A DNA stretch of 64,000 nucleotides from an uncultured Latescibacterota bacterium. GTDB lineage: Bacteria > Latescibacterota > UBA2968. The position numbers and the translations under genes are program-made. The notes beneath the pieces were generated by a model. The model did not search any database, was not told where the DNA came from, and worked only from the letters and a program-made list of their open reading frames with translations. Below, in pieces: positions 51,091 through 59,546 of this stretch. Location of the stretch: contig OY282377.1 in NCBI GenBank assembly GCA_958295785.1, forward strand, positions 5,458,896 through 5,522,895. The letters are read 5' to 3'. Every line of letters begins with the position of its first letter. Within the stretch, counting starts at the first letter, position 1.

Positions 51091-52283
51091 AAATTCTCAT
51101 TGCAAATGCCGGCTCCACGTCATTCAAATACCGCCTGTTTGACATGACCGATGAGTCGGTCCTCGCCGAAGGGCGTCTCGAGCGGATTGGCGATGCGAGG
51201 TCGCCGGTTGCCCATCGCATGGGCGAATGTGCGGTTGAGACCGAACAGTATTTGCCTGACTATGCTTCTGCTGTGCGCGATGTGATCTCCCGTCTCACAG
51301 ACGCCCGCACCGGCGTACTCGCGGATCTGTCTGACCTCCACGCGGTCGGGTTCAAAACCGTTCACCTGCGCGGCAAAGCGGGTACGCATCTCCTCACCGA
51401 GGAGATTTTGCAGCGCATGGCGGATTACAACGCCCTCGCGCCGGCGCACAACCCGCCCTATATCCAAGCCATTCGCATTTTCGCCCAACGCTATCCCAAC
51501 CTGCCCCTCATTGGCCTTTTTGAATCCGCGTTTCACAATACCATCCCCGACTACGCCTATATTTACGGCGTGCCCTACGAATGGTACGAAAAATACGGGG
51601 TTCGCAAATACGGGTTTCACGGCGCGTCCCATCGCTATGTTGCCCAACGCGCGGCGCAATTGCTTGACCGAGAGGATTTGCGCCTCGTGTCTTGCCATCT
51701 CGGAGGAAGTGCCTCCCTGTGCGCGGTTCGCAACGGGCAATCTATTGACACGTCTATGGGCTTCTCGCCGCAACACGGCATTGTCAACAGCACGCGCATT
51801 GGAACTATTGACGCATTTATTCTTCCTTATATTATGGAGCGCGAAAATCTGTCCATCCGCGAAATGGAGCGCATCCTATCTGAAGAAAGCGGTTTGCTCG
51901 GGATTTCGGGCATCAGCGGGGATGTGCGCGACCTTGAAGCCGCGGCTCAACAGGGGCATGACCGCGCCCGCCTCGCGCTCGAAGCGTTTTGTTATGGCAT
52001 TAAAAAAGAGATCGGCGCGTGCGCGGCAGCACTCGGCGGCCTCGACGCGATAGCATTTGCAGGCGGCATTGGCGAACGCGGCGCGACTGTGCGCCAGCGC
52101 ATTTGCACGGGCCTCGAATACCTAGGGGTTCACCTCGACAAAACCGCAAATGCCAATCCGCCCTCAGAGGGCGCGATCTCAACGCCCGACAGCGAGGTCG
52201 CCATTCTGATCATTCAAACCGACGAAGAGCGCATCGTCGCCCGCGCAGCAGTTGAATATTTGCAAAATGCGAAAAATTTATGA
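51087..52283 (+). CDS. Acetate/propionate kinase-like protein with altered active-site residues
   Basis: 398 residues with the acetate kinase fold: LIANAGSTSFKYRLF (Asn7), LAPAHNPPYIQAI, GLFESAFHNTIPDYAYIYG, KYGFHGASHRYVA, VSCHLGGSASLC, and a C-terminal AFAGGIGERGATVRQ. Compared with characterised AckA, the catalytic Asp in FDTAFH is Glu (FESAFH), VGHRVVHGG is VGFKTVHLRG (Arg to Lys), HLGNGSS is HLGGSAS, and TRSGDxDP is TRIGTIDA. It probably phosphorylates a different carboxylate. ATGA overlaps link it to the MFS gene before and the nuclease pseudogene after. Confidence 0.83.
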   Translation: MKILIANAGSTSFKYRLFDMTDESVLAEGRLERIGDARSPVAHRMGECAVETEQYLPDYASAVRDVISRLTDARTGVLADLSDLHAVGFKTVHLRGKAGTHLLTEEILQRMADYNALAPAHNPPYIQAIRIFAQRYPNLPLIGLFESAFHNTIPDYAYIYGVPYEWYEKYGVRKYGFHGASHRYVAQRAAQLLDREDLRLVSCHLGGSASLCAVRNGQSIDTSMGFSPQHGIVNSTRIGTIDAFILPYIMERENLSIREMERILSEESGLLGISGISGDVRDLEAAAQQGHDRARLALEAFCYGIKKEIGACAAALGGLDAIAFAGGIGERGATVRQRICTGLEYLGVHLDKTANANPPSEGAISTPDSEVAILIIQTDEERIVARAAVEYLQNAKNL

Positions 52284-53352
52284 CTCAAATCTATAAAGAC
52301 GAGATTGCGCGCCTAATCCAAATCGCGCCGTTTGAGATCGATACCGACGTGCAACTCACCGGTCGCCCTCCCACCTTGGCGAGTTCCCAGTTTCTGACAA
52401 ATAAGGAACAAGGCGACTAGGCCGAACAGATCGTATTTCGCGCAATCAACGAATACTCTCAGGAATACTGTGCGGTCAAATATGGCAGAACGGATAGCTT
52501 GGCGGCTGGCGACCCTAGATTCGCCAATTTTTACGCTTCCTATCAGGACGAACTAAATGATATTGGAAAGAAGCCGGATATTCTCGTTTATAGGCGACCT
52601 GATCTGCCTGCAACGGGTGGTTGTGACTTGGACGATGATGAATTTGTCCAGAAAGCGGTGGCGGCTATAGAAGTTCGTTCCAGTAGTTTTTTGGCGAATC
52701 GATATTTAGCATTTATGAAGAATAGAACGCGAGAGGCAGAGTCCGAATGCGAGAAAATACAACAACTTATCCTTGAGGAACCGTACTCAAGCCTGCTTTC
52801 TGAAAGGATGCCCGAACTCCATGAGATGATGCGAACGGCGACCTTAGACACATTTCGAGAGTTGGATTTCAGACTGCGAAGTTGGTATTCAACGCCGGAC
52901 TTAAGAAAACTGAGCAAACTCTTGAAATCGCTCAAAGAGCAGATAAAAATTTTGCACAAACGCGATTATCTGAGTATCACGCCAAAGCTAGAAGACTTGG
53001 CACTCGTCAATCGCTGGATTCAACGTTTTGGAGTCAGGCATTATTACAGGTATTTTTTGATAAGGCATACATCATACCTTTCAAGGATATTTTGACAATC
53101 ACTTCAGATCCCCAAAATGAGGGAGTAGTTTTTTCTGTCGAACGGGATGTAAAAAATCAGGGCAAGACGACGATCAAGGTGAATGTTCGAGTTGGAAAAG
53201 AAATTTTGGGGAGAATAGATATGCCCGAACATCGTGCTGCACTCAAAGAATTGGATCGAGGACGCCTTTTGTTTTACGTGACTTTTCACGGAGGGCGCGG
53301 TTACCTCGATCTCGATGTCTTTTCTCAAGAGATTATTTGTGATGTCGCGTAA
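52280..53352 (+). pseudogene. Type II restriction endonuclease gene, broken by a nonsense codon and a frameshift (AccI-like)
   Basis: The frame opens at ATG 52280 (MTQIYKDEIARLIQIAPFEI). TAG at 52418 interrupts ...KEQGD-stop-AEQIVFRAI, where Trp (TGG) would fit. The frame continues with KPDILVYRRPDL and AAIEVRSSSFLANRY (a D...ExR/K-like core), then [21 protein letters not shown]. Near 53040-53060 the reading shifts: [17 protein letters not shown] and [20 protein letters not shown] are in another frame, to the TAA at 53352. Rejoined it is ~357 codons. From memory it resembles the AccI family, whose partner is an N6-adenine methylase as here. Confidence 0.78.
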
Positions 53353-54910
53353 TGCTACATATTTGGCGTGCGTTGGGGAGAAGCACCGCAGAGACTACGG
53401 GCAATTTTTTACGCATCCCGCAGTCGCCGACTTTATGGTCGGCTGGGCCTTGGAATCTGGAAAGAAGTCCATTTTTGATCCGGGCTTTGGCCTCGGTGCG
53501 TTTTTTGATGCCATAGAAGATAGGTCAGATATCCGGTTCAGTGGATGTGAAATCGATCCCAAAATTCTCGATTTTTGGAAATCTGCGACACAACGGAAAA
53601 TTGACTTTATTAAAAATGAGGACTATCTGCTCTCATGGGATAAGACATGCGAGAATATCGTGTGCAATCCTCCTTATATGCGGTTTCAAAAATTTCTAAA
53701 CCGCGATAAAGTTTTTAGGGTATTTCTCGACAAACTCGGTCTAAAACTGTCTGGCTATACAAATACTGCGTCTGCATTTCTGCTAAAATCGGTCTCGGAG
53801 ATCGGCAACGCTGGACGAGTCGCGTACATCATGCCGCTCGAATTTCTCAACACGGGATATGGGGCCATTGTCAAAAGGCGACTTATTGAAGATGGACACT
53901 TGGTCGCAATGATCAACTTTGAATGCGAAAAAGATATTTTTTCCGATGCGACGACTTCGGTGGGCATTGTCTTGTACGACGCATCGCGGTATCCTAAATA
54001 TGTAGATTTTCATGTGATTAAATCAATGGCGTCGCTGGCGACAATTCTCGATCAACCCCCAGTATCTCGCGTTGCCACATGCGAACTCGATCCCAATTCA
54101 AAGTGGCTACCGTACTTTCAATCAGATACGTTCTCTGTTAGGTCGGAAAAGACCGTTCCCTTGAATTATTTTGGACGGTTTAGCCGCGGGATTGCCACAG
54201 GTGCGAACGAGTTTTTTGTTCTTAGGCCATCTTTTGCCCAAAAGTTTGGGATTGAGAGTTCTGAAGTTATCCCGTGTATTGCGAAAAGTTCTCAGATCAA
54301 AAAGCCCGTATTTGAGGATGAAGATTGCGAAATGCTGATTAAAAACGACGTCCCCGTCCTACTCTTCAGCGCGAATATCAGCCCTTCCAAACAAGCTGCG
54401 CGTTATATTCAACAGGGAGAGCAAAAGGGCTATCACAAACGCTTTCTGACCAAAAGTAGAAATCCGTGGTACAAGACTGAACGCAGGGATCCCGCTCCGC
54501 TTCTCTTAGGCGTTTTTTCGCGCGGCGGGTACAAAATTATTCGCAACAAAAGCAATGCCCTAACTTTGACCTGCTTCCACGGATTTCAACCGAATCTTTT
54601 CGGTATGAAGTATCTCGATCATCTGTTTCTCTACCTCGCCTCGGACTCGGGACGGGCAATTATTTCCTTGTCGAAAAGAAAATACGGCGATGCGCTGGAC
54701 AAATTTGAACCCAATGACTTGAATGACGCGCTGGTGCCAAGTCCAAAAATATTGGACGCGCTTTCAAAAGACGAAGTAGGAAATGCCATTTTGCACACCA
54801 AAAAGACGGGACGCATTCCTGCGGAAATTGACGATTTTTTTGGAAAACTAAAAATTCCCAATGGGGCGATGGGTTTGCACTTTGGGCACCGAATTGAGGA
54901 GCACCCGTGA
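53342..54910 (+). CDS. N6-adenine DNA methyltransferase of a type II restriction system
   Basis: 522 residues from the ATG at 53342, inside the last codons of the nuclease gene. Motif I is [14 protein letters not shown], with SAM-binding GCEIDP next. The catalytic motif IV is CNPPYMRF. After the catalytic domain comes a target-recognition region (about 280-500) with [17 protein letters not shown] and [19 protein letters not shown], as in Eco57I/TaqI-class methylases. The gene is intact although its nuclease is broken. The order nuclease-methylase and the tight overlap suggest one transferred unit. It overlaps the next gene by GTGA. Confidence 0.92.
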
Positions 54911-56028: not shown

Positions 56029-56042
56029 GGTGGGATAAAGTT

Positions 56043-57005
56043 ATGAGAACAGCCCTGATGAGTCTGATCGTCGCCGGCCTTTTATTGGGATGCGATTCGT
56101 CCCCAAAGACGGAAGATACGAACACAGCGGCGAAGGAATCCTTTAAGTTCCTCCTCGATTGGCAGGCAGAGCCGACGTATCTCGGCGTTTATCTCGCCAA
56201 AGCGCGGGGCGGCTTCACGCGCCTTGGCCTCGATGTGGAGATCGTGCAGTCTTGGGGAGCCAATGCCGCTGCATCTGCTGTGGCTGCGGGCGAATACGAG
56301 ATCGCCACCGCCTCAGGGGGCGCGACGGTGATTGCGAACAGCAATGGCGCGCGTTTGATTTCGACCGCGGTGCTGTATCCGCGCTTGCCCACGGCGATCT
56401 ACGGCCTCGCCGAGCAAGGCGTCAACGCGCCGGCGGATTTGGTCGGAAAGAAGGTGGGCGTCTATGCCGAGAGCATCAGCAAGAACGAGTTCGAGGCATT
56501 TTTGAAGATCACGGGCATTGCGGCGGAAGATATCGAACTCGTTTCGATCAGCGGTCCAAATATACCGATGTTGCTCGGCGGGCAAGTGGATGCGGTGCTG
56601 AACTACTTCGAGATGAGCCCGACCCGTCTCGCCCTTCAGCGAGAGACATTTCAACTTTTGCTGGACGAGTACGGGGTTAAGGGATATAGTTTGAACGTGA
56701 TCACCTCGGCAGAGACGTACGCACGCGAGCGCGAGTTGATCGACAATTTGACGGCTACGGTGCTGGACGCGTACCGCGCTGGTTGCGCGGATCAGCCAGC
56801 GGCGGTGCGGACATTTTTGGAAATTTTCCCAAAACAGGACGCCGAGTATGTGGAAAAGAGTTGGGCAAGCGTGTGCGCGTTTATCGGCGAGGACATCGGA
56901 CATCAGACCGCAGAAGGCTGGCAGACCACGATAGACCTCTATGGCAGCGTGGGCTTGCTCGGCGATACCCCGGTCACGCCCTCGGATATCCTGCCGCCGC
57001 AGTAG
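56043..57005 (+). CDS. NMT1/THI5-like substrate-binding lipoprotein
   Basis: 320 residues. Signal peptide with lipobox LLLGC (Cys17). The mature part begins with the family pattern FLLDWQAEPTYLGVYLAKARG and continues AANAGEY-like AAGEYEIATASGGATVI, then LVGKKVGVY. These proteins bind small cyclic or sulfonated compounds (thiamine precursors, nitrate, taurine-like) for ABC uptake. No permease or ATPase gene of that kind is adjacent. It could work with a distant transporter, or be a sensor. It lies 14 bases after the enolase-family gene. Confidence 0.85.
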   Translation: MRTALMSLIVAGLLLGCDSSPKTEDTNTAAKESFKFLLDWQAEPTYLGVYLAKARGGFTRLGLDVEIVQSWGANAAASAVAAGEYEIATASGGATVIANSNGARLISTAVLYPRLPTAIYGLAEQGVNAPADLVGKKVGVYAESISKNEFEAFLKITGIAAEDIELVSISGPNIPMLLGGQVDAVLNYFEMSPTRLALQRETFQLLLDEYGVKGYSLNVITSAETYARERELIDNLTATVLDAYRAGCADQPAAVRTFLEIFPKQDAEYVEKSWASVCAFIGEDIGHQTAEGWQTTIDLYGSVGLLGDTPVTPSDILPPQ

Positions 57006-57038
57006 TGCCGCGACTGTGTATTTTCGCCGGAGTTGACT

Positions 57039-57818
57039 ATGGCAGCTATTCAATCCCAACATCGCCCGGATCCGCGCGCCTGTGCGGTTGCCCGTGCGGT
57101 TGAGGAGGCAGTCCATCCGGATAGGGTTATCCTGTTTGGCTCTCGCGCCCGGGGCGACTTTAACGCGGATTCCGACATCGATTTGCTCATCGTCACCAGT
57201 TCCGATCAGTTGGGTCGGCGGGAATCTGAACGGAACCGAGCGGTGGCACATCGCAAAATTGAGGAAGTGTACGACCATTGGGTCGGCGTGGATTTGGTTC
57301 ACATGAGCGCGAATGCCTTTCGCTATGGTCGCCGGGCGCGCAACCATGTGGCGGGTCAGGCCGTGCGCGATGGCTATGACGCGAATGGAGACAAGGTGAA
57401 TTACGATAACCCAGAACCGACGAATTGGCCGGACATACGGCAGCGCATTGTCAATGCCGAACGGGAACTCCGCGTTTTGAATGATTTGGTAGAGGCCGAT
57501 TCTGCCCAAGAAGCCATTGGCTTTCACGCGCAACAGGCGATAGAGAACGCGCTGAAGGGTTGGATTTCCGCGCTGGATGCCGACTATGGAAACACCCACG
57601 ACTTATCCAAATTGATGGCGATAGTGCGCCGGCATCCCGGTGAACGTGAGACGCCCGCTGGCGAACAATTGATGTGGCTGACCGAGTATGCGGTCAAGTA
57701 TCGCTATGAGGGGGCGGTGGTGGAGATGGACGACCGCTTCGCGTTGCTCAAAGGCGTCACCGAGACCGTGCATGCCATCATCGCACGCATCCGGATGCTG
57801 ACCGGAACGAACGAATAG
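57039..57818 (+). CDS. Fused nucleotidyltransferase (MNT) and HEPN-like protein, tandem copy 1
   Basis: 259 residues from the ATG at 57039 (CCGGAG upstream). N-terminal MNT fold: FGSRARGDFNADSDIDLLIV with GS-x10-DxD (G34, S35, D46, D48) and a third acidic position in GVDLVHMS. The C-terminal half (about 140-255) is HEPN-like: AIGFHAQQAIENALKGWI, GNTHDLSKLMAIV and YAVKYRYEGAV. A clear Rx4-6H RNase motif is not visible in the HEPN part. In known MNT-HEPN modules the two are separate antitoxin and toxin genes; here one chain contains both. Two more copies follow. Confidence 0.87.
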   Translation: MAAIQSQHRPDPRACAVARAVEEAVHPDRVILFGSRARGDFNADSDIDLLIVTSSDQLGRRESERNRAVAHRKIEEVYDHWVGVDLVHMSANAFRYGRRARNHVAGQAVRDGYDANGDKVNYDNPEPTNWPDIRQRIVNAERELRVLNDLVEADSAQEAIGFHAQQAIENALKGWISALDADYGNTHDLSKLMAIVRRHPGERETPAGEQLMWLTEYAVKYRYEGAVVEMDDRFALLKGVTETVHAIIARIRMLTGTNE

Positions 57819-57854
57819 ATCGCGTGGATGCTAACTTGAGATCGGAAATTGACC

Positions 57855-58634
57855 ATGGTAGCTATTCAATCCCAACATCGTCCCGATCCGCGTGCTTGCG
57901 CGGTTGCCCGCGCGGTTGAGGAGGCGATTCATCCGGATAGGGTCATCCTGTTCGGCTCTCGCGCCCGAGGCGACTTTAGCGCGGATTCCGATATTGATTT
58001 GCTCATTATCACAGACTCTGAGCGGCGGGATAAGTGGGAATACGTGCGGAACCGAGCGGTGGCGCGTCGCAAGGTTGAGGAAGTGTACGACCATTGGATA
58101 GGCGTGGATTTGGTTCACATGAGCGCGGATGCGTTTCACTATGGTCGCCGGGCACGCAACCATGTGGCGGGTCAAGTTGTGCGCGATGGCTATGACGCGA
58201 ATGGAGACAAGGTGAACTACGACAATCCGGAGCCGAGCAATTTGCCCGATATACGACAGCGCATTGCAAACGCCGAGCGGGAATTCTCTGACTTGGAAAA
58301 GCTGATCGAAGTAAGCGGTTCCCAAGAAGCCATTGGCTTCCACGCGCAGCAGGCGATAGAGAACGCGCTGAAGGGTTGGATTTCCGCGCTGGATGCCGAC
58401 TATGGGAACACCCATGATTTGGGCGATTTGATGGCGATAGTGCGGCGGCATCTCCAAGAGAACGACACGCCTGCCGGTGAACAATTGATGTGGCTGACCG
58501 AGTATGCGGTCAAGTATCGCTATGAGGGGGCGGTGGTGGAGATGGACGACCGCTTCGCGTTGCTCGCCGGCGTCACCGAGACCGTGCAGGCCATCATCGC
58601 ACGCATTCGGATGCTGACCGGAACGAACGAATAG
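57855..58634 (+). CDS. Fused MNT-HEPN protein, tandem copy 2
   Basis: 259 residues, nearly identical to copies 1 and 3 over most of its length. It differs from copy 1 after the MNT core (DSERRDKWEYVRNRAVARRK instead of SSDQLGRRESERNRAVAHRK). In the linker before the HEPN part, EFSDLEKLIEVSGSQEA replaces ELRVLNDLVEADSAQEA. It shares the MNT variant with copy 3. A 36-base spacer from copy 1 contains GATCGCGTGGATGCTAACTT and CGGAA before the ATG. All MNT motif residues are intact. Confidence 0.87.
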   Translation: MVAIQSQHRPDPRACAVARAVEEAIHPDRVILFGSRARGDFSADSDIDLLIITDSERRDKWEYVRNRAVARRKVEEVYDHWIGVDLVHMSADAFHYGRRARNHVAGQVVRDGYDANGDKVNYDNPEPSNLPDIRQRIANAEREFSDLEKLIEVSGSQEAIGFHAQQAIENALKGWISALDADYGNTHDLGDLMAIVRRHLQENDTPAGEQLMWLTEYAVKYRYEGAVVEMDDRFALLAGVTETVQAIIARIRMLTGTNE

Positions 58635-58671
58635 ATCGCGTGGATGCTAACTTGAGATCGGAAAATTGACC

Positions 58672-59454
58672 ATGGCAGCTATTCAATCCCAACATCGCCC
58701 CGATCCGCGTGCTTGCGCGGTTGCCCGCGCGGTTGAGGAGGCGATTCATCCGGATAGGGTCATCCTGTTTGGCTCGCGTGCTCGGGGTGATTTTAGCGCG
58801 GATTCCGATATTGATTTGCTCATTATCACAGACTCTGAGCGGAGGGATAAGTGGGAATACGTGCGGAACAGTGCCGTGGCGCGTCGCAAGATTGAGGAAG
58901 TGTACGACCATTGGGTCGGCGTGGATTTGGTTCACATGAGCGAGGATGCGTTTCACTATGGTCGCCGGGCGCGCAACCATGTGGCGGGTCAAGTTGTGCG
59001 CGACGGCTTTGATGCGAATGGAGACAAGGTGAATTACGATAATCCAGAACCGACGAATTGGCCGGATGTATGGCAGCGCATTGCAAACGCCGAGCGTTAT
59101 CTCACTGACATGGAAGTTCTCGTTGAGGATTCCCGTTCTTCCCAAGAAGCCATTGGCTTTCACGCGCAACAGGCGATAGAGAACGCGCTGAAGGGTTGGA
59201 TTTCCGCGCTGGATGCCGACTATAGGAACATCCATGATTTGGGCGAGTTGATGGCGATAGTGCGCCGGCATCCCGGTGAACGTGAGACGCCCGCAGGCGA
59301 ACAACTGGCGTGGCTGACCGACTATGCGGTCAAGTATCGCTATGAGGGGGCGGTGGTGGACATGGACGACCGTTTCGCGTTGCTCGATGGCGTCACCGAG
59401 ACCGTGCATGCCATTGTTGCCCGCATCCGTGCGCTGACAGGGAGGGGTGAATAG
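58672..59454 (+). CDS. Fused MNT-HEPN protein, tandem copy 3
   Basis: 260 residues. MNT part as in copy 2; the linker is again different and one residue longer (YLTDMEVLVEDSRSSQEA). The end of the HEPN part shows a few changes (TDYAVKYRYEGAVVDMDD, RALTGRGE). The 37-base spacer from copy 2 is almost the same as that between 1 and 2, showing that the unit gene-plus-spacer was duplicated. A REP-like piece and a CGTTCATCTGTAG repeat follow the stop. Confidence 0.87.
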   Translation: MAAIQSQHRPDPRACAVARAVEEAIHPDRVILFGSRARGDFSADSDIDLLIITDSERRDKWEYVRNSAVARRKIEEVYDHWVGVDLVHMSEDAFHYGRRARNHVAGQVVRDGFDANGDKVNYDNPEPTNWPDVWQRIANAERYLTDMEVLVEDSRSSQEAIGFHAQQAIENALKGWISALDADYRNIHDLGELMAIVRRHPGERETPAGEQLAWLTDYAVKYRYEGAVVDMDDRFALLDGVTETVHAIVARIRALTGRGE

Positions 59455-59546
59455 GTTGGGTACGGGGGCACCGCCTCTACCTACTTACTCGCTTTTTATT
59501 TGCGTTCATCTGTAGATCGTTTTTTGCATTTTAATTGGATGGGTCT

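Follow-up and report, generated by a model that had tools for sequence, protein, structure and literature searches.

Tandem single-chain MNT-HEPN genes in an uncultured Latescibacterota bacterium: gene-conversion mosaics with a recurring two-version cassette

The window, meaning the whole stretch of 64,000 nucleotides analysed here, carries three consecutive plus-strand genes that each encode a nucleotidyltransferase (MNT) and a HEPN domain in one chain, arranged as follows.

57039..57818, plus strand: copy 1, fused MNT-HEPN gene, 259 aa, cassette type A (ORF and Pfam PF01909/PF05168)
57138..57182, plus strand: GSx10DxD nucleotidyltransferase motif of copy 1 (G34-D48); G34, S35, D46, D48 and D85 are invariant in the alignment of fused and split MNTs
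57819..57854, plus strand: spacer 1-2, 36 nt, differing from spacer 2-3 by one A in a poly-A run
57855..58634, plus strand: copy 2, fused MNT-HEPN gene, 259 aa, cassette type C (ORF, Pfam and AlphaFold2 models)
58635..58671, plus strand: spacer 2-3, 37 nt, with one extra A and otherwise the same as spacer 1-2
58672..59454, plus strand: copy 3, fused MNT-HEPN gene, 260 aa, cassette type B (ORF and Pfam)

All three reading frames started with ATG and were single and uninterrupted, and their lengths (259-260 codons) and spacers (36-37 bp) were those given in an earlier note on this DNA. A scan for promoters and terminators gave no signal above chance. The copies shared 85, 85 and 88% of their nucleotides in pairwise comparison (12-15% of nucleotides differ), with dS values of 0.31-0.43, dN values of 0.08-0.10, a dN/dS ratio of ~0.24 and one in-frame codon indel, which indicates purifying selection on every copy and argues against duplication of one gene during assembly. 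This divergence, together with the position of all three genes inside one 5.66-Mb contig, makes an assembly artefact, a worry raised in the earlier note, an unlikely source of the triplication.

Each protein matched PF01909 (NTP_transf_2, E = 2e-10 to 9e-10) and PF05168 (HEPN, E = 8e-13 to 2e-14) well above the Pfam cut-offs, so that the two halves read earlier from the letters are indeed a nucleotidyltransferase and a C-terminal HEPN domain in one chain. The nucleotidyltransferase active site, comprising GSx10DxD and a third Asp, was intact in all three copies, and in the HEPN half K173, H187, R222 and Y223 did not vary across an alignment with split HEPNs. The stretch FHAQQAIE was also invariant across the aligned HEPNs, but it had served as the search pattern for outside relatives, and its invariance among these is therefore by construction and not independent evidence. 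Q166 and E169 were present in all copies, while a motif search detected no R-x4-6-H (the RNase motif) in the HEPN half of any of them; split relatives generally lack this motif at the same place too, and its loss is thus not due to fusion. Judged by these sequence features, the HEPN half is of the Class II type (PF05168/PF01909, RX4HXY absent, conserved tyrosine; Yao 2020, PMC7641770). Class II pairs abound, especially among archaea, and the authors of that 2020 survey knew of no biochemical studies on them, for which reason the earlier note's model of a HEPN toxin AMPylated by its MNT, known for an RNase toxin, cannot simply be transferred.

Comparison with known systems placed the two-gene Class II pairs (COG2250/COG1708; PMC7641770, PMC2701414) as direct sequence relatives that share both domains and their order (MNT 5'), an intact GSx10DxD, the lack of RX4HXY and the conserved tyrosine; these are two neighbouring genes, whereas the window has one fused chain, three tandem paralogs and a diversified segment of HEPN alpha1. 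Type VII HepT/MntA systems (Class I; S. oneidensis, A. flos-aquae, L. pneumophila) share the MNT catalytic motif and the HEPN fold, but have RX4HXY and a DUF86/PF08780 HEPN in place of a PF05168 HEPN without that motif, and the MntA antitoxin profile NF047752 scored 33-34 bits against a cut-off of 60. The fusion itself is already known: HEPN-T domains of PF05168 fused to MNT are listed in Table 1 of Anantharaman 2013 (PMC3710099), where fused HEPNs were found usually to lose their RNase residues and those fused to MNT were judged mostly inactive substrate-binding or regulatory domains. AadA, ANT(4''), ANT(9), KNTase and LinB likewise carry a nucleotidyltransferase and a helical, HEPN-like C-domain on a single chain of ~250-265 aa, but no aminoglycoside or lincosamide nucleotidyltransferase family matched above its cut-off, and the domain placement appears to differ in our models; the ANT_9 profile gave about 19-21 bits against a cut-off of 340, with a weak match extending into the HEPN half. 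Hailong HalB is also a minimal nucleotidyltransferase with a helical C-domain, and its profile (NF051895) scored 31 bits against a cut-off of 190, matching 28 residues of the catalytic core only. The closest solved MNT by sequence was PDB 9xbd, for which no accompanying paper was found in the literature.

A homologue scan of one genome per species (84,980 species) yielded ~80 loci outside the phylum, with MNT and HEPN as two ORFs at 73 and fused at one (L028, Chloroflexi); the two ORFs overlapped at 69 of the 73, with the longest reading taken for each ORF, which overstates the true overlap. Within the window's class, fused genes were present in 15 of 47 genomes, mostly singly: eight genus-mates and G041 have one copy each, G015, G016, G017 and G046 have two each, G018 has decayed copies, and the window's genome has three. 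The two copies of G046 form a tandem pair, while those of genus g6 lie 3-29 kb apart. The earlier suggestion that three tandem fused copies are undescribed stands for three, although the pair in G046 shows that tandem arrangement is not confined to the window, and we found no description in the literature of tandem copies, gene conversion or a recurring cassette for MNT-fused HEPNs. The decayed copies of G018 are a type B copy with a frameshift and a fragment of the C-terminal part (L122 283-1061 and 3802-4086), and G006 retains an internally deleted remnant (L142 8250-8800). Searches with tblastn returned no phage or plasmid homologues, and viral contigs contained none. A split, overlapping MNT and HEPN pair of similar type is also encoded in the window's genome (L004 1447-2101).

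Some neighbourhoods of relatives drew attention. LRR-family genes adjoin or lie near the fused gene at several loci (L111 4658-7570, L117 9069-11993, L113 2938-6240, L121 10410-12788), at a distance of 12 bp in G041. We considered an LRR protein as a constant partner and rejected it: such genes are near the fused gene at about six of the other loci, but several of these are one inherited locus, the genomes concerned encode many LRR proteins, and the window cluster has no LRR gene nearby. In G046 the fused genes have a PF09820 AAA-ATPase-like gene upstream of them (L108 6397-7137), with a homologue in G041 (L117 12038-13807), where the LRR gene lies between the AAA-ATPase-like and fused genes.

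The genomic setting of the cluster comprises two insertions.

52263..54896, unstranded: second species-specific insertion, AccI-type restriction-modification genes, G+C 44-45%
56031..59536, unstranded: species-specific insertion with copies 1-3 and an NMT1-like solute-binding protein; G008 and G006 have its flanks directly joined
56043-57005: NMT1/THI5-like solute-binding protein, within this insertion alongside copies 1-3

An enolase-family gene and a GldG-like gene that directly abut in G008 and G006 are separated by 3.5 kb in the window, and the restriction-modification insertion lies ~1 kb upstream of the cluster insertion, beyond the enolase-family gene. Among 20 relatives searched at E 1e-60, none had a match to the solute-binding protein. 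The AccI-type endonuclease (52499-53352) is apparently frameshifted, its profile being matched over 75-263 in ORF 52499-53095 and over 262-355 in ORF 52882-53352 in another frame, beside a methyltransferase ORF (53315-54910) that is open throughout. The single copy of the genus-mates sits at another locus, at which the window's genome has none, and when the tree was rooted on L028, the copies of the window grouped with other genera and not with the genus-mates (96/96). Taken together, the insertion, the different locus in genus-mates and the tree make the three-copy cluster look acquired. The fused MNT-HEPN gene is an accessory module, inserted in the window's genome, scattered among relatives and decaying in some of them.

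The differences among the three copies are unevenly distributed. Sites at which two copies agree against the third fell into 48 runs where 95 were expected, with a longest run of 21, and none of 20,000 permutations gave a number as low; such long tracts are the mark of gene conversion, and the copies are thus gene-conversion mosaics. At codons 141-158, in contrast to this two-against-one pattern, all three copies differ, and 6 of the 10 sites at which the three differ from one another are located there. This variable segment, hereafter the cassette, occupies the following positions.

57459..57509, plus strand: variable cassette of copy 1, type A, aa 141-157, end of HEPN alpha1 and alpha1-alpha2 loop
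58275..58325, plus strand: variable cassette of copy 2, type C, aa 141-157
59092..59145, plus strand: variable cassette of copy 3, type B, aa 141-158

Two versions of the cassette recur in relatives, A (ERELxVLxxLVEA-xSAQ) and B (xRxLxDLEVLxExxRSSQ), and type C was seen only in copy 2 of the window's genome. Every genome with at least two intact copies had one A and one B, while the eight genus-mates had only type A and G041 only type B. Cassettes of the same type were about 0.8 identical across genomes, against 0.46-0.49 for the cassettes within genomes. When every 18-column window of the alignment was scanned, with the labels chosen freely in each, aa 141-158 was the strongest window in which cross-genome identity (0.79) exceeded within-genome identity (0.46), and outside the cassette the cross-genome excess never went above 0.03 (protein) or 0.00 (DNA). 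The two copies of G046 differ at 23 of 54 bases inside the cassette and at 19 of 708 outside. In a tree built without the cassette, copies grouped by lineage with 100/100 support for the window's genome (G000, three copies), G046 and genus g6, and a topology with type B as one clade was rejected (p-AU 5e-66). Since G015, G016 and G017 of genus g6 share one duplication in the tree, the A/B pattern has three independent occurrences, and these three (the window's genome, G046 and genus g6) are the only independent multi-copy lineages. By these comparisons of sequence, the cassette alone escapes homogenisation by gene conversion among copies.

For structure prediction two separate alignments were used, as a single full-length alignment misaligned the MNT rows; the two AlphaFold2 models (mean pLDDT 79.9 and 82.2) placed alpha1 at 130-152 and alpha2 at 157-178, with the cassette as the end of alpha1 plus the alpha1-alpha2 loop. 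Foldseek matched the single halves to MNT and HEPN structures, and the best whole-chain matches included AadA, ANT(4'') and KNTase, with TM-scores of 0.26-0.42, rmsd of 7-13 A and an uncertain inter-domain placement. The Legionella HEPN dimerises through alpha1, alpha2 and the Y-loop (Q21, A25, L28, L34 and others) and uses Q44/E47 with Mg instead of RX4H, mutations R98A and H103A having negligible effect (PMC11586414). Anchoring its Q44/E47 to Q166/E169 brings Q21, A25, L28 and L34 into the cassette, a two-residue anchor to a HEPN of another subfamily, from which we infer that the cassette may lie at the predicted HEPN dimer interface. The earlier idea that three copies could give mixed oligomers or redundancy is refined accordingly by the pattern itself: the copies are alike except at this predicted interface, which fits separate oligomers better than mixed ones.

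The reading we favour, though tentatively and at somewhat less than even likelihood, is a single-chain Class II HEPN/MNT module that transfers a nucleotide onto its HEPN half and whose paralogs sort themselves through the interface cassette. An intact pol-beta-type nucleotidyltransferase is joined by a short linker to a PF05168 HEPN devoid of the RNase motif, which in other bacteria is the next gene's product. Most likely the enzyme would nucleotidylate the HEPN half of its own chain or of a dimer partner, probably at the conserved tyrosine of the YAVxxRY motif. One protein would thereby serve as both effector and regulator. After duplication, gene conversion keeps the copies alike outside the 18-residue segment while selection would retain alternative cassettes (A, B and here also C) at the predicted homodimer interface, such that copies would dimerise with themselves and form separate units. 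We infer the nucleotidylation in cis or between subunits, the interface location, the self-sorting and any toxin-like effect from these patterns; the cassette probably controls which copy pairs with which.

The main rival is a role like that of antibiotic nucleotidyltransferases, in which a small molecule (an antibiotic or metabolite) would be modified, the HEPN half would bind the substrate, like its counterparts in AadA, ANT(4''), KNTase and LinB, the cassette would tune substrate choice and several copies would broaden the range. The whole-chain fold matches, the reach of the ANT(9) match into the HEPN half, the proposal that fused HEPNs become substrate-binding domains (Anantharaman 2013, PMC3710099) and the purifying selection on all copies agree with it, but the ANT(9) score of ~20 bits is far under the 340-bit cut-off, the low whole-chain TM-scores and high rmsd suggest that the domain placement does not match the ANTs, by sequence the closest relatives are MNT/HEPN pairs encoded by two genes and not ANTs, and no resistance gene was present among the neighbouring genes examined; we consider this role rather unlikely. 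Dosage could also explain ordinary recent duplicates with a fast-evolving surface or loop of no pairing role, for which the scattered distribution and decayed copies might speak; a merely fast segment, however, would not be expected to recur in the same two versions across lineages, and this explanation is the least probable of those considered.

The A and B cassettes might instead be complementary faces of an obligate hetero-oligomer, with multi-copy genomes building a mixed A/B(/C) complex. Such a complex would accord with the one A and one B in all three multi-copy lineages and the adjacency of copies in the window's genome and G046, but the genus-mates with A only and G041 with B only imply that each type can exist alone, and the genes of genus g6 lie apart, which leaves the hetero-oligomer improbable. 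About as improbable is an RNase toxin controlled in cis, in which the HEPN nuclease would act through a Q166/E169 metal site and the attached MNT would silence it by AMPylation: the Legionella precedent and the retention of both residues in all copies are consistent with it, but the invariance of FHAQQAIE among outside relatives is by construction, and nuclease activity of Class II HEPNs was not found described (PMC7641770).

Returning to the self-sorting single-chain module, the recurrence of cassettes within a homogenised background suggests a self-sorting code among paralogous single-chain modules. That such modules multiply in a genome in general, with a swappable interface segment recurring across genera as a pairing code that prevents cross-pairing, is a bolder extension that we regard as doubtful but possible. 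While MNT-HEPN fusion was already described, gene-conversion mosaics with a recurring two-version cassette are new. The single-chain form with its natural paralogs offers a convenient handle on the function of the Class II HEPN/MNT module, and the A/B cassette, recurring where the surrounding sequence is gene-converted, singles out residues likely to set specificity and leads to a prediction, open to direct test, of how near-identical copies of a module may coexist in one cell without interference.
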